27,717 nt of DNA, from positions 1 to 27,717 of IMG/VR virus record IMGVR_UViG_3300031963_000751; one strand, given 5' to 3'. How positions within the stretch are numbered: the stretch's first letter is position 1; the number at the start of each line of letters is the position of its first letter. The notes under the pieces were generated by a model. That model ran no database searches. It saw only the letters and a list, made by a program, of their open reading frames with translations, and had not been told where the DNA came from. Positions 9,079 through 19,089 of this stretch are shown in pieces. The position numbers and the translations under genes were made by a program. This stretch comes from a virus.

Positions 9079-9612
9079 TTAAACGCCTTTGAGCGTTGTA
9101 GCAACTTTCCAATTTAACTTGGAAAATGCTTCGATGTTATTTTGCAAAAAATTTGAGAAACCAATTTCGCCAGCGGCTTCTGCTGCAGCGTATACGGTTT
9201 TCAATTCACGAACTAGTTTTGATAGTTCGTCGTTTAGATTTGCAAGCATCTGACGTGGCTCGAGCATTGCTGAAGTGTCTTCAACAACTGAAGATTTACG
9301 AGCAAGAGTTGCTGGTGAGAGCATTACATATCCGCCGAGAATACGAATGTGCTCAGCATGATTATCTACTGTGCCGTAAAGACCTTCGTAAACTTCACCA
9401 AATAGTGCGTGGTATTGTGGGAAGTTTGCGCCGTCGATGTTTAGGTGATAGGTATGTGCCTTCAAATAAACGCCGAAAATGTCAACAAGAGCCTTGTCAG
9501 CCATGCTTACAAGACCTGCTTTTTGAACTTCAACGTCTTCTTTTAGTTTCGTAGCCATAACAGCCTTCGCTGCGCCAGCCACTGAAAGTAATGATTTATC
9601 CTTAATGAACAT
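9079..9612 (-). CDS. dps: Dps-family ferritin-like DNA-protection protein
   Basis: A 177-residue protein, the usual Dps length. After an N-terminal extension (1-30) it has the Dps four-helix core. The segment from Y55 to G92 aligns without gaps to the ferroxidase region of E. coli Dps. His56, His68, Asp83 and Glu87 match E. coli His51, His63, Asp78 and Glu82. The position of E. coli Asp67 is Gly72, followed by Glu73. The C-terminal helix (about 120-172) also fits the family. Dps proteins form dodecamers that oxidise and store iron and bind DNA. The start is supported by AGGAG upstream, and a late-promoter-like AATAAATA lies 29 nt before the ATG. It sits amid basic virion-type genes, suggesting late expression. 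Confidence 0.85.
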   Translation of the reverse strand: MFIKDKSLLSVAGAAKAVMATKLKEDVEVQKAGLVSMADKALVDIFGVYLKAHTYHLNIDGANFPQYHALFGEVYEGLYGTVDNHAEHIRILGGYVMLSPATLARKSSVVEDTSAMLEPRQMLANLNDELSKLVRELKTVYAAAEAAGEIGFSNFLQNNIEAFSKLNWKVATTLKGV

Positions 9613-9640: not shown

Positions 9641-9648
9641 TATTTATT
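9641..9648 (-). promoter_or_regulatory. T4-type late promoter-like core upstream of dps
   Basis: The minus strand reads AATAAATA, 7 of 8 bases of the T4 late core TATAAATA. It lies 29 nt before the dps ATG and overlaps the stop codon of the upstream gene. Position and spacing match the second AATAAATA at 13592-13585. Late T4 promoters have little else to recognise, and AT-rich sequence yields chance matches. Confidence 0.45.
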
Positions 9649-12106
9649 TGTCGCCAAATTCACGCTCAAATGCCTCGTTGACATCTACTGACTCACGACG
9701 CAAATCCTTATCGGCTGTGTGGTAGGTTTTGCCCTTTGTAATATAGGAATTTACACGAGCATGACCCCACTGCTGTGGCGTGGTTCCTGGACGATGTCCA
9801 GAATTCCAAGCCGCAACGCCACGATTATAAACCTTTCTTAAAGTGCCAAGCGAAATGCCCGACTTTCTCGCTTTATCGGCAAGTGACTTACCTGCTGATT
9901 CTTCCATCGTGCCCATTGCGGCTTGATGAATATGGCGATTTTGATGATGAATTACACGAGTATCGCGAATGCGCCGCTCACGTTCTGTCTTTTTAGTAAT
10001 TGCAGCATTATCAGTCATTTGCTCAGCAACGCGTGGCAATTCACGATAGGCTTTTGCTAATCCCTTTGAAGGAAGTTTCTTTGCAGCCTCACGACCCATT
10101 TGTAGTGCAGATCCACCAAATCGAACTTTACCGCTGATTGCTGCATTCACGCCAGCCTGACGCAATACCTTTTTCTTGGCTTCTGCGTTTGCTTTATTGC
10201 GTTCATCAATTTGTTCTACGCTTTCATATGCAGCAACTGTATGACGGTGAATGACTGGTCCTGTTTGTTGAGGTTTCGCGACTCGCGTTTGTCTTTCAAT
10301 AGTTGAGAATACAGCGCGCATATGTTTGTGGCTAACTGCTGGTTTCTTTTTTGCAACAGGTTTCTTTCGTAGAAAGGATAAGAAACCTTCAAATTGTTCG
10401 ACTTCTTCGTTTGTCTTAGCGACTTGTTTTTTATCATATTCTTTGCGAGCCTGAGTCAGCATTTCCTCGCCACGCTTACGGCTGGCATCGCTTGCAGTTT
10501 TTTCTCTGTCAAATGCGCGTTGTAATTTGACGGCTGCACTCATGCGCTTTGAGCCTTCATCCACTTGCTCGGCTTCTTCTTTCATTTGATTAATGTATGA
10601 TTTGAATTTGTCAGCAACAGTATCCCCTTTATGTCTGCTTATGTTGACAGACTTACCATGCAAACTACCACGGACTGTGTCATCGTCCTTGTCATGTTCT
10701 AGCCAGCCAACTTCTTTATTTCCAACAGAGACACTAAAGTGCCGCATCATTGGGTTTGCTCTTGAGCCTTTGAATACAGGAGACTCTTTAGGCTCAATTT
10801 TATATCCACGAGCCTCATCCACTTGCTCGACTTCTTCAAAATGAGCCTTCATGTGTGCTTCGGTGTCTTTCTTGGTTTGATTTGGACCAAGACCACCAAG
10901 TTTTGTCATGCGGCGAATATATTTTTTAGAAGCGGCAGCTGCACGAGCATTCTTATCTCGATTCAAGAAGTTCTTGACATCAGATGATTTTGGGCGAGCG
11001 GCTGCTTCATAATCGAAGCGCATGTTGGCTTCATCAACCTGCTCGACTTCTTCTTTTACTTTTTTATATTGTTTTTGCAATATTTTCAATGCACCTGATT
11101 TAACTTCATCGCGTTTAACTGGATTCGCTTTTTTTCCTAATGCTAATCCTTCAGCACCACGACTTGAAGATGGTTGAGATTTATCCATTTCATCGAGTGC
11201 AACTTCATGTAAGCGAACGTTGCTTACATGTGTTTTAAATATTGGGTAATAGTCATCACCACGACCTAGTGTACTGCGCTTATAATCGCTGCGGAAATAA
11301 ACATGACCACCTTCAACCTTTTCAACTTTACCAGTATTTTGACCACCTTTAATAGTTGAAATGTGATCGCCGACCTTTGGTTTATAATCTGCCATCTTTT
11401 CTTCACCCATATGTTTGAAGTATTGAACTTGTCTTTCGCGCTTCATTGCGCCAGCCTTTGTGTCATAAGTTCCAAGATTGCGTCCAGTCTTTTTAGAAAC
11501 AAGACGAAACTTACCATCAACCTTTACGATTGTTTCATCTAACTCTACGGACTCGTCCATTTTTGGACTGATTCCTTTATATTCTCTTTTAACACCTTCG
11601 CCGTCCCAATAAGCGCAGCACATTCTTTCTGTCACAAAGTCATGAATGTCCTCGTGATTGCAATATGCTTTTATCTTAACAACTGCCTTTCCTGGCAATG
11701 TAACAAGATCAGCATGTTTAGACATTTCAACGTATGCTTCGTTTGGCGCTTTCAATCCACCATATTCGTTCAATTCGCTCTTGTCGACTGGCTTCTCTGA
11801 TTCCTTTACCCAGTGAATACAGTTAGCGCAATTTGTTCCTTCAATCTTTTCTGGTGCACCTTCAACAACAATACCAATTTGTTCACCGAACATTTTATGA
11901 AAACGTTTTGTGTATTTGCTTGGTTTTGTTTTTGCTGTTGCATCACCAGGTGCAGGTTTGTATGCGCGTGGATCGCTGTCGGAAAGTTTTGCTGCCTTTT
12001 TCCAATGCGCAGCACGAGCCTTTGCAGTAGATTTACTTAAACCTGCCACATACTTCTTTGGCAATCCTGATTCTTTATCTTTTGCAACAGGAGGAAACTT
12101 TTTCAT
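9644..12106 (-). CDS. Large modular protein with recurrent [LIV]DE linkers
   Basis: An 820-residue mosaic protein. Residues 3-73 are a Lys-rich module (FPPVAKDKESGLPKKYV). Residues 91-168 are Cys-rich (C93, C96, C149, C163, C164) and resemble a HiPIP-like or zinc-binding fold. Residues 241-300 look like a small SH3/KOW-type beta-barrel. Residues 745-800 (SLGTLRKVYNRGVAAWNSGH) form a module recurrent in phage proteins. Between them lie short basic segments separated by acidic linkers ending in LDE, VDE or IDE at residues 191, 306, 359, 431, 517 and 635. T4 prohead protease cuts after I/L-x-E, so this may be a precursor cut into internal head peptides. It is coupled to the upstream NMNAT-kinase gene by ATGA. 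Function is inferred. Confidence 0.65.
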   Translation of the reverse strand: MKKFPPVAKDKESGLPKKYVAGLSKSTAKARAAHWKKAAKLSDSDPRAYKPAPGDATAKTKPSKYTKRFHKMFGEQIGIVVEGAPEKIEGTNCANCIHWVKESEKPVDKSELNEYGGLKAPNEAYVEMSKHADLVTLPGKAVVKIKAYCNHEDIHDFVTERMCCAYWDGEGVKREYKGISPKMDESVELDETIVKVDGKFRLVSKKTGRNLGTYDTKAGAMKRERQVQYFKHMGEEKMADYKPKVGDHISTIKGGQNTGKVEKVEGGHVYFRSDYKRSTLGRGDDYYPIFKTHVSNVRLHEVALDEMDKSQPSSSRGAEGLALGKKANPVKRDEVKSGALKILQKQYKKVKEEVEQVDEANMRFDYEAAARPKSSDVKNFLNRDKNARAAAASKKYIRRMTKLGGLGPNQTKKDTEAHMKAHFEEVEQVDEARGYKIEPKESPVFKGSRANPMMRHFSVSVGNKEVGWLEHDKDDDTVRGSLHGKSVNISRHKGDTVADKFKSYINQMKEEAEQVDEGSKRMSAAVKLQRAFDREKTASDASRKRGEEMLTQARKEYDKKQVAKTNEEVEQFEGFLSFLRKKPVAKKKPAVSHKHMRAVFSTIERQTRVAKPQQTGPVIHRHTVAAYESVEQIDERNKANAEAKKKVLRQAGVNAAISGKVRFGGSALQMGREAAKKLPSKGLAKAYRELPRVAEQMTDNAAITKKTERERRIRDTRVIHHQNRHIHQAAMGTMEESAGKSLADKARKSGISLGTLRKVYNRGVAAWNSGHRPGTTPQQWGHARVNSYITKGKTYHTADKDLRRESVDVNEAFEREFGDK
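10202..11053 (-). repeat. Degenerate EEVEQVDE-type linker repeats
   Basis: Five copies of a nine-residue linker lie within the 820-residue protein at 11053-11027, 10837-10811, 10579-10553, 10408-10382 and 10225-10202. They read EEVEQVDEA, EEVEQVDEA, EEAEQVDEG, EEVEQFEGF and ESVEQIDE. At DNA level the first three share GAAGAAG[TC]CGAGCA. Synonymous differences between copies indicate selection on the peptide, not recent DNA duplication. Confidence 0.8.
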
Positions 12107-13557
12107 TTGCTTTCTTCTTGTATTGCTGTTGTCGTTAAACCAATTCCACCTGATGGTACTGCGCCCATGCGACCATCAAAGTAACTGCTCATTCCCATTC
12201 TTGCGACAGAAAGAGGAGAGATATCTTTCAATTTCTTTTTCTTAGACTTCTTATTTTCTTCTTCGCCAATGGTTGGCTCAGCAGACCTGGCAACGGCAAT
12301 GCCGCCCCCTCTTGCATCTCCCTGACTACTTTCAAGGGGATTCTGTTCCTTTCGACGAATATTTTTCTTTTTATCTTCGTCAGCACTTGTTTCAGCTTCC
12401 GCATAACTCTTGACATCATTTGTGACCTGTCCTGGTGTTAAGTGCTTCATAAAATTTGAAGCATCGTTTGTCCCTGCTTCCAAAACTCTTTCATCTAAAA
12501 ATCTTTCAACACCTTCTGACAATTCACGAAGCCATCCGCCAATTTCTGCTTTGCGGCTTTCTTCTGCAATAATAATATTTTCTGAATTGTCATAGATGAA
12601 GAATGTTTTAAATTCTTCAAAAAATGCATTCATGTTCTTTAGTGATTCATCGTAACGATTCTTACGAACTTCTTCATTAAATGTTTTCGAACCTTTCATC
12701 AAACGGAAGTTATTACGATTGCGCGAAACTTCATCTGATGTATAAACGAAAACCATGGCAGTATCATAACCCATGGCTTCTAAAATTGTTTTTGCAATTT
12801 CAATCTTTCCTTTATTTTCGGCAGTACCGTTAATAATTACAGAAGGATAATCTTCTAGTTCAAGAAGATTCTTTTGTTCTAAAATTGCTTTATGCAGTTT
12901 ATCTAAACTTAATTCAATTAAATTATGTTCATTGAATACAGAATGAATCAAGAAATCTTTACCGCTTCCTGGTCCACCAACAAGAAATACTGCTTTATAA
13001 CTTTCTTTGAGTTTAGTCATTCCTGCTTTTACCTTATCGTGTAGTTCAGCGCCTAATTTTTTATCTTTATAATGAGATATGAAATCATTACGTTTGCCTG
13101 ACGAAACCAAACCGCGAAGTTTTGAGGCTGACATACCCTCCGCACCTTCTGAGTCTGGATCACGATGTCCTGCAGAAACAACTTCAACTTTCTTAATTTT
13201 TGGGAATTCTTTTGCGCGATATTTGTTTAGTAATTCGTGATATTCTGGAACGCGATCTGAGCCTGCAATTAGGGTAACGTGAGTATGCCCCTTACTTTCC
13301 AAATGCTGCATTGCATGAATAAGAGTACGAACCTTTGAATTTGAAACGACGTTTGCTTTTGGAAACAAACGACGCATCGCTGAAACTTTATCGTCGTGGG
13401 ATAGCGGATTGCTACGACTATCTTGAGTGTGTGTAGGGAAAATGTAGTGAGCGCCGCCTGTTTTTTCGGCGTGCTCCATTGCGGAGTTTACTACTTTACC
13501 GTGACCTTCTTCTGTTGGAGGGTTAAAACGACCCCACACTAGTGTTGCTTTACTCAT
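12103..13557 (-). CDS. NMNAT-like nucleotidyltransferase fused to P-loop kinase
   Basis: A 484-residue protein with two enzyme-like domains and a basic tail. Residues 2-180 resemble a nucleotidylyltransferase of the NMNAT/cytidylyltransferase superfamily: WGRFNPPT at 8-15 and EEGH at 16-19 in place of the usual [HT]xGH, and SASKLRG at 143-149 matching the ISSTxxR-type signature. Residues about 187-345 are a P-loop kinase with Walker A GGPGSGKD (194-201). The tail (from LDE at 354-356) is disordered and Lys-rich. NadR pairs NMNAT and ribosylnicotinamide kinase domains similarly, so NAD salvage is one possibility. Another is a polynucleotide or small-molecule kinase. The ATG is chosen over an in-frame TTG at 13578, since the fold starts at once. 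ATGA coupling follows. Confidence 0.75.
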   Translation of the reverse strand: MSKATLVWGRFNPPTEEGHGKVVNSAMEHAEKTGGAHYIFPTHTQDSRSNPLSHDDKVSAMRRLFPKANVVSNSKVRTLIHAMQHLESKGHTHVTLIAGSDRVPEYHELLNKYRAKEFPKIKKVEVVSAGHRDPDSEGAEGMSASKLRGLVSSGKRNDFISHYKDKKLGAELHDKVKAGMTKLKESYKAVFLVGGPGSGKDFLIHSVFNEHNLIELSLDKLHKAILEQKNLLELEDYPSVIINGTAENKGKIEIAKTILEAMGYDTAMVFVYTSDEVSRNRNNFRLMKGSKTFNEEVRKNRYDESLKNMNAFFEEFKTFFIYDNSENIIIAEESRKAEIGGWLRELSEGVERFLDERVLEAGTNDASNFMKHLTPGQVTNDVKSYAEAETSADEDKKKNIRRKEQNPLESSQGDARGGGIAVARSAEPTIGEEENKKSKKKKLKDISPLSVARMGMSSYFDGRMGAVPSGGIGLTTTAIQEESK

Positions 13558-13584
13558 AGTTTTACCATCTGTTGGCAATAAGAT

Positions 13585-13592
13585 TATTTATT
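13585..13592 (-). promoter_or_regulatory. T4-type late promoter-like core before the NMNAT-kinase gene
   Basis: The minus strand reads AATAAATA, 27 nt before the ATG at 13557. It overlaps the end of the upstream ligase-like gene. The same octamer at nearly the same spacing precedes dps, which strengthens both. Confidence 0.45.
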
Positions 13593-14754
13593 TTTTTCTT
13601 CCTTTTAGCAAATTAGAACGAGCAAATTCTGCACGATTTACTAATTTTGTTGGATGTCCATTATGTACCATAACAAACCCTTCTGGCTCGGTTTTTTTAC
13701 CGTCTATATGGTGTTCAAATTCAGTCGAGGAAGATAGAGTTTGCACTAGTGCATTTTTCGCTTTTTGAATAGCATGATGAATCTTAAACGCTTGGGCTAA
13801 ATGTTTACCATTTCTGTCGACTTCGTTGTGAAATGCATTTAAAAGTTCGTGTTGTTTGAGTTTACCTTTTGGCGTTTTCTTCTTTTCGATCTCGCCTTCG
13901 TAACGATTGGAGACGAAAGAACGATAACCCTCAACCGTTGGAGTCGTATTTTCACGAACGGTGTGATTAATATAAAGGTCTAAATGATCTTTATGGGCTC
14001 GAGCCACGTGATACATCTCTGGATGAGAGGCTTGGTGGTGGCGAATTGCTGAATTTAGGTAGGTGCGAAACTCTTTTTGATTCTTTTCAGAGTGTTCGAC
14101 TGGCTTTACGCCTGGATGAATAAGGTGAACGCTTGGGTGAGACCCAAATTTATCGTGATCTACGTCAAACCCTGCAGTCATATTTGCAAGATCAGGACCG
14201 TGATACTTTGTGTGAACAACTAATCCGACGTGGGCTTTTGCGATCTTTTGACCGTGTTCTGAGTCTACAGGGGTAGAATAGGTGATTGTATTTGGAGTAA
14301 AATGATATTTACCGCCTTTTTTAGCCACATCACCCTTTGTATACATTAGGTCGCCTTGATAAACGCCATGTTTTGGGGCGACTTTAGGTAAATGTCGAAG
14401 CGCAGTTTTAAGTTTTTCGACTAATCCAGGTGCGTGACCGTGATTGCGATCGATGTCGGCTTCACTATAATTGATTTTTGGATTAACGTTGAAAGCCGAC
14501 TTACTGGCAACAAAGAACTTGCCCGTTTGTGGATGACGACCAAACACGATAGAAGGGGATCCATCGTACTTGGTCGTCACTTTTGTAGTATTGAACGCAC
14601 CGTTAAGTTTGTCGTTTACTGCTGAGAGAGCATCTACCGTATGGTGAAAACCTGTTTCACCGCTATGTAGAAAGTTATCTTCTGCGTGTGTTAAGTGCTT
14701 TAAATGCTTAACTGGTTCTATTTCTTCTTGTAAATAGGTGCTAAACGATAACAT
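13588..14754 (-). CDS. Ligase-like nucleotidyltransferase (DUF6267-like)
   Basis: A 388-residue protein with the order of motifs seen in covalent nucleotidyltransferases (DNA/RNA ligases). KYDG at 62-65 supplies the likely nucleotidyl-accepting Lys62 (motif I). YQGDLMY at 132-138 fits a motif III region. PEGFVMVHNG at 357-366 fits motif IV, and TKLVNRAEF at 369-377 fits motif V. It resembles an uncharacterised marine-phage family that I recall as DUF6267. Substrate is unknown: nick or RNA sealing, or a non-ligase NMP transfer, are all possible. The first ten residues (MLSFSTYLQE) match the pattern of the T4 capsid-targeting sequence, hinting at packaging in the head. A late-promoter-like CTAAATA and a GGAGAG site precede it. 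Confidence 0.75.
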   Translation of the reverse strand: MLSFSTYLQEEIEPVKHLKHLTHAEDNFLHSGETGFHHTVDALSAVNDKLNGAFNTTKVTTKYDGSPSIVFGRHPQTGKFFVASKSAFNVNPKINYSEADIDRNHGHAPGLVEKLKTALRHLPKVAPKHGVYQGDLMYTKGDVAKKGGKYHFTPNTITYSTPVDSEHGQKIAKAHVGLVVHTKYHGPDLANMTAGFDVDHDKFGSHPSVHLIHPGVKPVEHSEKNQKEFRTYLNSAIRHHQASHPEMYHVARAHKDHLDLYINHTVRENTTPTVEGYRSFVSNRYEGEIEKKKTPKGKLKQHELLNAFHNEVDRNGKHLAQAFKIHHAIQKAKNALVQTLSSSTEFEHHIDGKKTEPEGFVMVHNGHPTKLVNRAEFARSNLLKGRKK

Positions 14755-14804: not shown

Positions 14805-15590
14805 TTAATTACTCTTCATTTTTGCAAGAGCAGCAGTCAACGCCTCACGAACTGGACGCATAGCAGGATGCGCTGGGATCGTGCAGGTAGAACGAGAAGC
14901 CAAAGTGGCTTCTTTGAATTCTTCTGGCGTAAACCATTGAACGTTATCAATACCCATTAACTCCACGAGTTCGTGCATATTGACCGAACCTTCGTTTACA
15001 AGATTCACAGGACCTGATTCGCCGTCTTCAATAAGATCGCATGCAACACGAACGGCTTCGTCAAGGTCAGTAAGAGAGTTTTGACCTGCGTCGATAAGTT
15101 TAGCGTTCTTGGCGTAATTCATCACCTTGGTTAGGTAATTCTTTTTCTCATTAAGACCAGTAAATGGCATGCGAATACGGAAAACAAGAGCACGATCCTT
15201 CAAATAAAGATCCGAAACGCCCTTGGTTACTGAATAGATGCTACCGAAGTAATTTGGATCATCATTTACATGAGAGATCTCACCTTGGTAAATGCAGCCG
15301 CTCGAGAAGTGAGCCAAACGTGGCTTGTGCCAATTTTCTTCGCAGGATTTGTAAAGTAATGCTGGAAAAATGGCATTAGCGTAGGTGGTTCCTTCGCGAT
15401 CTAATTCACAAGCATCGACATTTGGCGATCCTGTCATACCTGCACAGTTCACAACCCAATCATAAACGCCATCTGCTGCTTCTGCCAACGCATTCTTATG
15501 ATCGGAAATCGTCACAACATGATTGCGATTCATAAGTTCCGTTAAAACTTTTTTACCTGTCCATCCACGCCCAACAACTAAAATTTTCAT
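14805..15590 (-). CDS. rmlD: RmlD-like dTDP-sugar reductase (SDR)
   Basis: A 261-residue extended short-chain dehydrogenase/reductase. The N-terminal dinucleotide-binding loop is GRGWTG (7-12), a GxGxxG variant. FSSGCIY (95-101) and the catalytic YSVTK (119-123) follow. It resembles dTDP-4-dehydrorhamnose reductases and the reductase half of epimerase/reductases, which reduce the 4-keto sugar with NAD(P)H. It follows rmlB and rmlA in a single run, supporting a dTDP-sugar substrate. No rmlC is present nearby, so the product need not be dTDP-rhamnose. The ATG with GAGGTG at good spacing is preferred over an in-frame TTG at 15602. Confidence 0.75.
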   Translation of the reverse strand: MKILVVGRGWTGKKVLTELMNRNHVVTISDHKNALAEAADGVYDWVVNCAGMTGSPNVDACELDREGTTYANAIFPALLYKSCEENWHKPRLAHFSSGCIYQGEISHVNDDPNYFGSIYSVTKGVSDLYLKDRALVFRIRMPFTGLNEKKNYLTKVMNYAKNAKLIDAGQNSLTDLDEAVRVACDLIEDGESGPVNLVNEGSVNMHELVELMGIDNVQWFTPEEFKEATLASRSTCTIPAHPAMRPVREALTAALAKMKSN

Positions 15591-15598
15591 AGCACACC

Positions 15599-16477
15599 TC
15601 AATTATGTTTTCCCAGTTTAATGATCTTCTGCAAATATTTACCATAGTCCGACTTAATATACTTGTTTGCCGCTTCTTGAAGTTGGTATTCTGTAATCCA
15701 AGCATTACGATATGCAACCTCTTCAGGGCAAGCAATCATTGTTCCAGTTCGTCTTTGAATTGAACCAACAAAGGTTGATGCCTCTGCAAGTGATTCAAAC
15801 GTACCAGTATCAATCCAAGCAATACCACGATTCAAATATTCAACTTTACAATCGTGATCTTTCATATAAAGATTATTAATGTCTGTGATTTCAAGTTCAC
15901 CGCGAGCAGACGGTTTGATTTGCCACGCATAATCTACGACTTTATTGTCATAGAAATATAGACCAGTTACAGCATAGTTTGTTGGCGCAACGGCTGGTTT
16001 CTCGAGAATTGCTTTTGGATCACCATGCTCATCAAGTTCAAGAACGCCGAAACGTTCTGGGTCTTGTACATGATATGCGAACAAAGTGCAACCTGTATTG
16101 TTCTTTGCGTAATTGAAACGGTTGATCAAATCATTACCGTAAAAAATATTGTCACCAAGAACAAGAGCAACATCATTCTTACCAATCCAATCTTGAGCGA
16201 GACGGAAGCACTCGGCAATTCCGTTTGGCTTTTCTTGAATCATGTAATCAATTTTCAAACCCCACTGCGAACCATCTTTCAACAAACGTTTGAATTGTTC
16301 GCTATCATTTGGTGAGTTGATGATTAAAATATCGCGAATTCCCGCTAACATCAAAGTCACAAGAGGATAATAAACCAATGGCTTATCATAAACTGGTAGC
16401 AATTGTTTCGATGTCACTTCAGTACATGGATACAAACGAGTACCCATACCACCTGATAGAATAATCCCTTTACGCAT
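15599..16477 (-). CDS. rmlA: Glucose-1-phosphate thymidylyltransferase RmlA
   Basis: A 292-residue protein, the family's normal length. It makes dTDP-glucose from dTTP and glucose-1-phosphate, the entry step to dTDP-6-deoxysugars. Visible signatures are GGMGTRLYP (9-17), the nucleotide-binding loop, KQLLPVYDKP (24-33), and VLGDNIFYG with the metal-binding Asp. IVK-type and EKP segments of the family are also present. Its start overlaps the end of rmlB by 8 nt, and GGAG precedes it, so the two are co-translated. Assignment is strong. Confidence 0.95.
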   Translation of the reverse strand: MRKGIILSGGMGTRLYPCTEVTSKQLLPVYDKPLVYYPLVTLMLAGIRDILIINSPNDSEQFKRLLKDGSQWGLKIDYMIQEKPNGIAECFRLAQDWIGKNDVALVLGDNIFYGNDLINRFNYAKNNTGCTLFAYHVQDPERFGVLELDEHGDPKAILEKPAVAPTNYAVTGLYFYDNKVVDYAWQIKPSARGELEITDINNLYMKDHDCKVEYLNRGIAWIDTGTFESLAEASTFVGSIQRRTGTMIACPEEVAYRNAWITEYQLQEAANKYIKSDYGKYLQKIIKLGKHN

Positions 16478-17420
16478 TATAATACTCCAAAGTTTTAATT
16501 AAGCCATCATTAATATTCGTTTTTGCTTGCCAACCCAAGTCATGAGCAATTTTACTCGCATCCATTGAGTATCTAAAATCATGACCTTTACGATCAGGAA
16601 CAAAATTAATCCAGTTTTGATACATGTGAACTGGCTTACCCATCAGATCAAGGATGAGTGTAATCATATCAAGATTACTCATCTCAACGCCACCACCGAT
16701 GTTATAACGCTCACCTGACTTAAAGTTTTGACCAATAGTCAGCAATGCATCGCAGTGATCTTCAACAAACAACCAGTCGCGAACATTTTGACCTGTGCCA
16801 TAAACTGGAATTGGTGTATTGTTCTTAATGTGACGAATCACAGTTGGAATGAATTTTTCTGAGTGTTGTCGCGGACCGTAGTTATTTGAGCAATTTGTCA
16901 CAACTGCTTCAATGTTATGCGTGTTTACATAAGCGCGAACTAAATGATCGCTGGCTGCTTTGGTTGCAGAATACGGATTGCGTGGATTGTATGGTGTATT
17001 TTCTGTGAACGCTGGATCATCATGACCCAAACTACCATATACTTCATCAGTAGAAACGTGAACTAATTTCCCTCCGTACTTTTTGATACACTTGAGGATA
17101 TTGTGAGTTCCGTTAATATTTGTATCCAAGAAAACGTCGTCGCCGCGAATGGAATTATCCACATGAGATTCAGCAGCAAAATGGAAAGTAATATGCGGTT
17201 CGTAATCATGATACAAACTCTCCAAATGTCCGAAGTTGCGAATGTCGCAACGTTTGAGTTTGAGTCGCCAATCGTTCCAATAACCGTCTAAATTGCTTTC
17301 GTTTGCCGCATATGAACAATTGTCAATAACGATGATCTCATCTTCAGGATACTTTTTCAGATGAGAGATTACGAAATTAGAACCAATAAAACCCAAACCG
17401 CCAGTCACAAATGTAGTCAT
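16470..17420 (-). CDS. rmlB: dTDP-glucose 4,6-dehydratase RmlB
   Basis: A 316-residue extended SDR that converts dTDP-glucose to dTDP-4-keto-6-deoxyglucose. It shows TGGLGFIG (6-13) for NAD binding, the catalytic triad region STDEVYG (Thr124, Asp125, Glu126) and YSATK (150-154). All key residues are intact, although the protein is somewhat shorter than typical bacterial RmlB (about 350). GGGTGA precedes the ATG. It is the first gene of the sugar group and is followed by rmlA and an RmlD-like gene. The product may serve host surface modification, virion glycosylation or DNA modification; the sequence does not decide between them. Confidence 0.95.
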   Translation of the reverse strand: MTTFVTGGLGFIGSNFVISHLKKYPEDEIIVIDNCSYAANESNLDGYWNDWRLKLKRCDIRNFGHLESLYHDYEPHITFHFAAESHVDNSIRGDDVFLDTNINGTHNILKCIKKYGGKLVHVSTDEVYGSLGHDDPAFTENTPYNPRNPYSATKAASDHLVRAYVNTHNIEAVVTNCSNNYGPRQHSEKFIPTVIRHIKNNTPIPVYGTGQNVRDWLFVEDHCDALLTIGQNFKSGERYNIGGGVEMSNLDMITLILDLMGKPVHMYQNWINFVPDRKGHDFRYSMDASKIAHDLGWQAKTNINDGLIKTLEYYNA

Positions 17421-17443: not shown

Positions 17444-18706
17444 TCATGCTGATGTAGCAATCAACGAAGTTAGGAGTTTTCCTTTTTCTATATAGTTTCT
17501 AATATAGGTAGACCCATCAGGTTTACCTTCTGCTTTCACACGCACTTCCAAAAATGATTCTTCATCTTTGTCTTCAATAATCATTCTTGGTTTACCGCTG
17601 GAGTCAATAATCTTTACTTTCAAATCCAAATTTTGAATTGCGCCCATCACTTTACCGAAATCATAAACTTTAGCAGCACCACCAGCAAGTTGAACCAAAG
17701 TTACATTTTCTTCACCGCTTGTTGCAAACTTTTGTATACCACTACCCAAATTGTTTAACAAAGTCGTTTTAGTTCTTTTGTTTTTTAGCATAGTGTTCAT
17801 TTTGTTTGACACATAATCATATACTAGATACACAGCCTTTTCAACTTTTTTCTTCTTTAAAAGGTTAGTGTAATCGTCTTCCAATTCTGAAACATCAATA
17901 CCTGCAAGTTTATTCCAAAGTGTAATTTGTTTTTCAAACTCAGAACCGCCAACCTGACCGAACTGTTTAACATCATCTGCTTTTAGAGAGATATTAACGT
18001 TTGTTGCTTTACCATCGACCTTAACTTTCACGTCAACCTTTGTGCCTTTCTGGTCACCGACGCCATCACTGATTACATCAATTACATTTTCTTGATTGTT
18101 TTCGTAAAGTAGTTTAGACCATTTCGTTATGGTTTGACCGTTTGCGTATTTTGCTGCCGCATCAAAAAGATCACTGTACGAGTCCCATGAACTTTGATCT
18201 AAAAAGAATTTCATATTGGATTCAGCAAGCGACAAATAGAATTGAACTGTATCTTTGATTTTGGGATTCTTATTTGGTGATGGGAATGATTTTTCTACAA
18301 CCTTACCATTTTTAGTTGAAAGGGAGGAAATGATTTCCTTTACTTTACTTGAGTCAATCGGTTGATTCTTATTTACAAATCGAGCAGCAATTGCTGCGGC
18401 AAGAATACCTTCAGCAATGTCGCCTTTGTTACCCTTGTCTTTAGGTTTATCAATAGCACCAATAGCAACCAAACCGCTAGTTGTTTCTAGGATCAAATCT
18501 AAGGCTGCTCTTTCTGTACTGGATGATGATGCAAGTTGCGAGTACTTTTTCAATACTTGCTTGTTTTTATCGTTATTTTTTATAATGACAGTTTTGATGC
18601 CCGCTTTTATGCCAGTTCTACTATTCATAGAAGAACCAACAACACTTAAAAGACCAGCAGTGTATTTGGCTAACTGTCCTTTACTTGTAGTTCTTAATTG
18701 CGCCAT
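17444..18706 (-). CDS. Hypothetical protein with possible nuclease signature
   Basis: A 420-residue protein. A GDIAEG segment (95-100, Glu99) lies in a helical region. A later beta-hairpin region has VDVKV (D225) followed by NISLKADD (238-245, Lys242) and Gln248. The spaced acidic residue, then xLK and Gln, is suggestive of a PD-(D/E)xK nuclease core, but the usual second acid is Ser240, so the match is weak. The rest is Lys/Ser/Asn-rich with no other motif. It is coupled by TAATG to the upstream HExxH protein. It may instead be a virion protein. Confidence 0.55.
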   Translation of the reverse strand: MAQLRTTSKGQLAKYTAGLLSVVGSSMNSRTGIKAGIKTVIIKNNDKNKQVLKKYSQLASSSSTERAALDLILETTSGLVAIGAIDKPKDKGNKGDIAEGILAAAIAARFVNKNQPIDSSKVKEIISSLSTKNGKVVEKSFPSPNKNPKIKDTVQFYLSLAESNMKFFLDQSSWDSYSDLFDAAAKYANGQTITKWSKLLYENNQENVIDVISDGVGDQKGTKVDVKVKVDGKATNVNISLKADDVKQFGQVGGSEFEKQITLWNKLAGIDVSELEDDYTNLLKKKKVEKAVYLVYDYVSNKMNTMLKNKRTKTTLLNNLGSGIQKFATSGEENVTLVQLAGGAAKVYDFGKVMGAIQNLDLKVKIIDSSGKPRMIIEDKDEESFLEVRVKAEGKPDGSTYIRNYIEKGKLLTSLIATSA

Positions 18707-19089
18707 TACTCATAAATTTTAGGATTTTGCTTCCCATAATTCCTCATTATAACACCAGCAACGCTATTTGCTTCATTCTCAAAGTCACTGCCAGTTTCGC
18801 CAGCATTTCGGGTTAAAATTCCCTTCAAGTTTTGCTGATGATGAACCATTTCGTGAGCCAAAGTGCGAAGCACGTCAGCTAGGTGACGACCACCTGTATT
18901 TAAATAGATTTTCTTTTCGCTTGGACTATACCCACCGAAACTTTTGTTTTCAATTGCAACGTTTTTGTCTGGGATCAACTCAAGTGCAGGCATTTCTTCA
19001 AGTTGCAGGAAGTCGCGAACATAGTTCATAAAGTCATCTATGTGCTCGGTCTTTTCTTCTTCCTTCAGGTACTGTTTGAACTTCAACAT
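18706..19089 (-). CDS. Small HExxH zinc metallopeptidase-like protein
   Basis: A 127-residue protein with TLAHEMVHHQQ (77-86), a classic HExxH zinc site with catalytic Glu80, and a downstream DFENEANSVAG (102-112) that could supply the third ligand. This arrangement fits a minimal zincin. The N-terminal ten residues, MLKFKQYLKE, match the T4 capsid-targeting pattern (aromatic at 4 and 7, hydrophobic at 8, Glu at 10). The start overlaps the preceding gene by 56 nt; an internal ATG at 19029 would avoid this but would lose the decamer. The substrate is unknown: cell wall, host protein or virion protein. Confidence 0.75.
   Translation of the reverse strand: MLKFKQYLKEEEKTEHIDDFMNYVRDFLQLEEMPALELIPDKNVAIENKSFGGYSPSEKKIYLNTGGRHLADVLRTLAHEMVHHQQNLKGILTRNAGETGSDFENEANSVAGVIMRNYGKQNPKIYE

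Follow-up and report, generated by a model that had tools for sequence, protein, structure and literature searches.

A putative T4-type capsid-targeting decamer on a candidate ligase-type nucleotidyltransferase of a T4-like freshwater phage

The DUF6267 protein encoded by a T4-like freshwater phage is, in our judgement, reasonably likely to be a head-packaged, gp21-processed nucleotidyltransferase of the ligase type, which carries a T4-type capsid-targeting tag and is delivered beside a tagged or fused NMNAT partner. The T4 mechanism itself is known; what is new is that very abundant aquatic phages seem to mark a whole set of enzymes with it, by one interchangeable tag. The window, the whole stretch of DNA analyzed here (27,717 bases), is an IMG/VR virus record and a fragment, the record being the window itself, and contigs between 28 and 54 kb long carry identical copies of the DUF6267 protein. 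The open reading frame starts with ATG and reads from 14754 down to 13588 on the minus strand, near genes for a DNA polymerase, RecA/UvsX and a helicase that by eye have a T4-like appearance. The features discussed below are as follows.

13588..14754, minus strand: DUF6267 gene (PF19782 / phrog_455), a ligase-like nucleotidyltransferase candidate of 388 aa (Pfam 4.5e-96; PHROG 1.2e-99; AlphaFold2 pLDDT 89)
14725..14754, minus strand: codons 1-10, MLSFSTYLQE, candidate T4-type capsid-targeting decamer with a putative gp21 cut after Glu10 (tag-pattern tests)
14569..14571, minus strand: codon of Lys62, the predicted nucleotidylated lysine, in motif I, K62-Y-D-G-S (invariant in 38 homologues)
14350..14358, minus strand: motif III-like Q133-G134-D135 (invariant; on predicted strand 131-139)
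13672..13683, minus strand: motif IV-like E358-G-F-V361 (E, G and V invariant; strand 359-364)
13633..13647, minus strand: motif V-like K370-L-V-N-R374 (K and R invariant; strand 367-371)
12103..13560, minus strand: NadR-like protein downstream of DUF6267, with an NMNAT/cytidylyltransferase domain and a P-loop kinase domain, without a tag in the window (Pfam and PHROG)
18706..19089, minus strand: second tagged gene of the window, metallopeptidase-like, N-terminus MLKFKQYLKEE (Pfam, PHROG and tag pattern)

The DUF6267 family and its N-terminal decamer

The window protein belongs to Pfam DUF6267 (PF19782; T4-GC 71) over its full length, matching at residues 19-383 with 322.9 bits against a gathering cut-off of 27. 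PHROG 455 is longer than DUF6267, its C-terminal part corresponding to the neighbouring cytidylyltransferase. Among the phage records searched, 471 contain a relative, mostly T4-like cyanophages, with further members in Pelagibacter and Methylophilales phages; the relatives are nearly always annotated as hypothetical, and the Pfam family has no assigned function. Bacterial and archaeal genomes yielded 13 matches (12 MAG contigs and one Prochlorococcus record), which we read as phage sequence binned with cells or caught in them. A literature search for DUF6267, or for the tag in cyanophages, returned no paper.

The decamer MLSFSTYLQE agrees with MKTYQEFIAE of T4 IPII and IPIII at positions 4, 7, 8 and 10. 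The T4 internal proteins IPI, IPII and IPIII share a common ten-residue N-terminal pattern, the capsid-targeting sequence, which serves as a modular leader on otherwise unrelated proteins and is cut after Glu10. Whereas the T4 cargo is a small basic protein or an inhibitor, the cargo here would be a 388-aa enzyme-like protein. In a survey of 95 distinct N-terminal 14-mers from 151 DUF6267 loci, Phe or Tyr was present at position 4 in 85 and at position 7 in 86, Leu or Ile at position 8 in 84, and Glu at position 10 in 85; positions 2, 3, 5, 6 and 9 were variable, and the whole pattern was satisfied by 84 of the 95. In T4 IPIII, mutagenesis assigned targeting to residues 4 and 7 and processing to residues 8 and 10 (PMC9026906). 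The likeness to the T4 targeting peptide, proposed in the first-pass annotation, is thus stronger than first stated, the four functional positions being conserved across the family.

The tag pattern is M-x-x-[FY]-x-x-[FY]-[LI]-x-E at the extreme N-terminus; besides a tight form, a wider version with Leu also allowed at position 4 was used. Of 2,022 predicted N-termini, 21 matched the tag pattern, where shuffling of residues 2-14 gave an expectation of 0.83, and none of 2,582 internal Met positions did; a chance origin of the decamer was rejected on these two tests. Applied to 251 T4 open reading frames as a control, it selected exactly ipII and ipIII and missed one variant, a 95-aa open reading frame with the N-terminus MKTFKEF, which we take to be IPI. 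That the pattern is an effect of chance or of the composition of phage N-termini, a reading already disfavoured, we regard as very improbable. Such a reading could appeal to the shortness of the pattern and to the wider version, which also matches some ordinary proteins outside virions, but the excess over shuffled N-termini, the complete absence at internal Met positions and the fit of the great majority of DUF6267 N-termini all speak against it.

Tagged proteins in related phages and in published virion proteomes

Besides DUF6267, the tag occurs in related loci on cytidylyltransferase/NMNAT proteins, HAD phosphatases, a metallopeptidase, an adenylate kinase and proteins without a family, and in S-CREM2 also on a SAM hydrolase and an APH/ChoK-like kinase. 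On whole contigs, nearly all matches to the pattern are grouped near DUF6267. The adenylate kinase (L066, 6953-7528) bears a 15-residue capsid-targeting-like extension, MKSFKQYFFEAINK, and its core family match begins at residue 16. Judged by this distribution, the tag is a modular leader, apparently interchangeable among unrelated proteins. It is no peculiarity of the ligase-like enzyme: the tag is common to the whole enzyme set, and many cyanophage DUF6267 proteins are without it.

A gp21-type prohead protease was found on five related contigs, in which the gp21 N-terminus and the gp23 propeptide contain similar [FYL][LIM]xE/ sites at predicted cleavage positions (e.g. SYLTE/AK and AFLNE/AA, the slash marking the putative cut). 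No gp21 was found within the 27.7-kb window, which is a fragment, nor on the fragments of its closest relatives.

Published virion proteomes provide a link between the tag and the phage particle. The cytidylyltransferase has been detected by mass spectrometry in purified virions of S-SM1 (PMC3037559), S-CREM2 (PMC10665884), S-SCSM1 (PMC9602691) and S-SZBM1 (PMC9146016), and all four proteins are tagged (MKKFSAFLNE, MKNFSSFLTE, MKSFLQFLKE and, one residue shorter, MRFRQFIIE, respectively). This NMNAT/NadR-like protein of cyanophage virions (T4-GC190) is a neighbour or fusion partner of DUF6267 and has the same N-terminal tag, but it is a HIGH-type adenylyltransferase whose fold differs from that of DUF6267. 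For S-CREM2, where 52 of 219 open reading frames were detected in virions, the tight pattern selects four proteins: the SAM hydrolase and the APH/ChoK-like kinase (OR473000, L140; 3837-5081 and 10579-12846; tags MKDFDSFLEE and MKRFDAFLTE), ORF136 and the cytidylyltransferase. All four were detected in virions (P = 0.003). With the wider pattern the count in S-CREM2 was five of seven (P = 0.009), two candidates being undetected; for three phages taken together, the tight pattern likewise gave five of seven (P = 0.004). The Cas9-like nuclease ORF12, the fourth non-structural, non-lysis enzyme of the S-CREM2 virion, has LRFASFMAE/AA close to its annotated start.

The authors of two of these proteomes considered that such virion enzymes may be lysate carry-over (PMC10665884, PMC9602691). 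The tag would explain their presence, and it offers a sequence-based, testable answer to the question of cargo or contamination, which several groups reporting enzymes in cyanophage virions were unable to decide; it would also permit the prediction of cargo from genomes alone in aquatic phages of great abundance.

Unlike the window protein, the DUF6267 proteins of the six cyanophages examined (S-SZBM1, S-CREM2, S-SCSM1, S-SM1, Syn9 and S-PM2) have no tag, and packaging is therefore not expected to be universal in the family. The untagged proteins of S-SZBM1 and S-CREM2 are absent from the virion lists of both phages, and that of S-SCSM1 has no virion-protein label in its record. Untagged DUF6267 absent from virions and tagged proteins present in them fits a tag that chooses the proteins to be packaged. 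A tagged DUF6267 does occur in a cultured phage, Methylophilales phage Melnitz (N-terminus MINFSKYITE followed by DK). Our literature search for a virion proteome of any phage with a tagged DUF6267 found none.

The existence of untagged cyanophage members missing from two virion lists could also be taken to mean that the ligase-like enzyme remains unpackaged in the cytoplasm during infection, the decamer being an amphipathic helix that docks to another phage protein, and the location of the gene beside those for DNA polymerase, UvsX and helicase would suit such a role. We nevertheless consider this quite unlikely, as the decamer marks virion-detected proteins and is confined in T4 to internal head proteins; moreover, its positions agree with the T4 mutagenesis, and on adenylate kinase it is an appended extension. 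The assignment of the DUF6267 decamer as a T4-type capsid-targeting sequence is well supported at the level of sequence, because the T4-critical residues are conserved family-wide, the leader appears modular, the T4 control behaved as described, and other tagged proteins have been identified in virions by published mass spectrometry. The window protein probably travels in the virus particle and reaches the host along with the DNA. Such a fate would resemble that of T4 Alt, a head-packaged enzyme that gp21 processes and that is delivered together with the DNA (PMC9026906), although Alt, an ADP-ribosyltransferase, has a propeptide of 7 residues and no sequence relation to DUF6267 is claimed.

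Two small tagged proteins that are homologous to each other were also observed, SSCSM1_30 (MK867354 44215-44535, L178; MKTFKQFMSE) and SSZBM1_191 (OL473597 122311-122628, L179; MKSFKSFLSE). Both adjoin virion protein genes, and they are themselves not reported in virions, which counts against the packaging reading.

Ligase-type motifs and predicted fold

Nucleotidyltransferase motifs I, III, IV and V are all present in DUF6267, in ligase order and conserved. Across 38 homologues, the most distant of them about 35% identical, the residues K62, D64, G65, K85, G130, Q133-G134-D135, E358-G359, V361, K370 and R374 are invariant. The KxDG(S) form of motif I, the EG[FY]V form of motif IV, and the order and strand placement of the motifs are those of T4 Rnl1, Rnl2 and the adenylation domain of NAD+-dependent DNA ligase, and the motif V Lys follows motif IV by 12-13 residues, as in T4 Rnl1. 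DUF6267 is unlike these ligases in its motif III, QGD (ligases usually have GE at this motif, DUF6267 GD), in a large helical insertion, and in its non-significant profile and fold scores.

An AlphaFold2 model built from the homologue alignment reached a mean pLDDT of 89 and a pTM of 0.84, and was used in place of the single-sequence prediction, which was unusable (pLDDT 36). In the model, residues 1-14 are disordered (pLDDT under 50), the motifs lie on or adjoin predicted strands, and the helical insertion (about residues 206-343) is located between motifs III and IV. Short natural forms of about 300 aa, in S-CREM2 and S-SCSM1, are missing the insertion and retain the motifs; a search for close relatives of the S-CREM2 form found none.

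Comparison of the model with the PDB using Foldseek placed adenylation domains of NAD+-dependent DNA ligases (E 0.24, the best value) among the top ranks, together with T4 RNA ligase 2, the trypanosome editing ligase TbREL1 and the Pnkp1/Rnl complex, none of them significant. Searching PDB sequences with the DUF6267 profile gave helical chance matches only, and a Pfam scan of all 38 members had no ligase family among the matches listed. Against relatives of T4 Rnl1, hhalign aligned the motif IV-V segment alone (P about 0.05, not significant), pairing Rnl1 EGYVAVMKDGSHFK with DUF6267 EGFVMVHNGHPTK and placing Rnl1 E227-G-Y-V exactly opposite motif IV. The comparison with Rnl2 was not significant, and these hhalign results lack power, because the positive control, Rnl1 against Rnl2, was also weak.

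Of the original proposal of a ligase-like nucleotidyltransferase, the motif evidence stands, KYDG and motifs III-V being invariant, ordered and on strands, whereas the fold and profile matches are all non-significant. On balance it is likely, if not proven, that the DUF6267 protein is a covalent nucleotidyltransferase. A search of the literature for a ligase with a capsid-targeting leader found none.

That no known ligase matches significantly in fold or profile would also suit a protein that is tagged and packaged but inactive as a ligase, and delivered as a scaffold, an inhibitor or a nucleotide-binding protein. Its large helical insertion, missing from the short natural homologues, points the same way, as do the T4 internal proteins, which have been described as diverse defence proteins and include an enzyme inhibitor, IPI (PMC3012670). 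Inactivity is still unlikely in our view, since K62, D64, G65, the motif IV Glu and the motif V Lys are invariant to about 35% identity, and the short S-CREM2 and S-SCSM1 forms retain them. Full catalytic sets are rarely retained by pure scaffolds.

The NMNAT/NadR partner, a proposed mechanism and neighbouring genes

An NMNAT-type motif is encoded downstream of DUF6267, on the same strand and within 4.5 kb, or fused to it, at 67 of 84 loci. Among the 67, the partner is fused to DUF6267 in 14, separate with its own tag in 27, and separate without a recognised tag in 26, including the window. Fusions with a single N-terminal tag were noted at L011, L012, L014, L020, L023, L024, L189, L221, L222 and L233. 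By Pfam and PHROG, the partner in the window is NadR-like, combining an adenylyltransferase with a P-loop kinase; this architecture has been described, and a general case has been made for the packaging of NAD+-handling enzymes in contractile-tailed phages (PMC9503650).

As we infer them, the packaging and cleavage of the DUF6267 protein, its delivery, its chemistry and its substrate would be connected in the following way. During head assembly, decamer residues 4 and 7 would dock the protein on the scaffold core, and the prohead protease, a gp21 homologue, would cleave it after Glu10. The freed residues 11-388 would remain with the DNA and enter the next host at infection. As a ligase-type covalent nucleotidyltransferase with predicted AMP transfer to Lys62, the protein would there have nucleic acid as its substrate, repairing nicks or tRNA or adenylating ends, and the co-packaged NMNAT/NadR-like partner would regenerate NAD+ from NMN.

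Provided that the enzyme is active, two functions can be suggested, both tentatively and to a similar degree: repair, as the ligase-like enzyme, the P-loop kinase and the tagged HAD phosphatases together look like a set for mending RNA or DNA ends; or NAD+ economy, in which NMN released by DUF6267, should it use NAD+, would be reconverted to NAD+ by the NMNAT. A broader and more speculative proposal, which we consider possible but rather doubtful, is that Kyanoviridae-like and related aquatic T4-like phages head-pack a set of enzymes (DUF6267, NMNAT/NadR, HAD phosphatase, adenylate kinase, SAM hydrolase, kinase and protease) by means of one ten-residue tag, as a ready-made kit for NAD+ and nucleic-acid repair and counter-defence. 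DUF6267 would then form a new family of ligases, with the co-packaged or fused NMNAT supplying their adenylation cycle. If packaging is true, a ligase-like enzyme is among the proteins that reach the host as infection begins, and DUF6267 would receive its first functional frame.

Several other genes of the window were noted, all on the minus strand. An 820-aa protein (9644-12106) contains repeated EEVEQVDE/A-like linkers and a C-terminal DUF5824 domain, with seven [VIL][DNTS]E[AGNRSTE] sites where shuffling gave 0.88; judged by these sites, it may be a head polyprotein processed by the prohead protease. Adjoining it is a Ferritin-like/Dps protein (9079-9612; Pfam 2.4e-14; PHROG 'DNA binding protein'), for which a DNA-protecting, packaged role is conceivable. 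A collagen-like protein with GxQG repeats (1273-2367) is probably a fibre or surface protein. Finally, a run of genes at 14805-17420 resembles, by eye, a dTDP-sugar synthesis pathway, with a nucleotidyltransferase, a dehydratase and a reductase.
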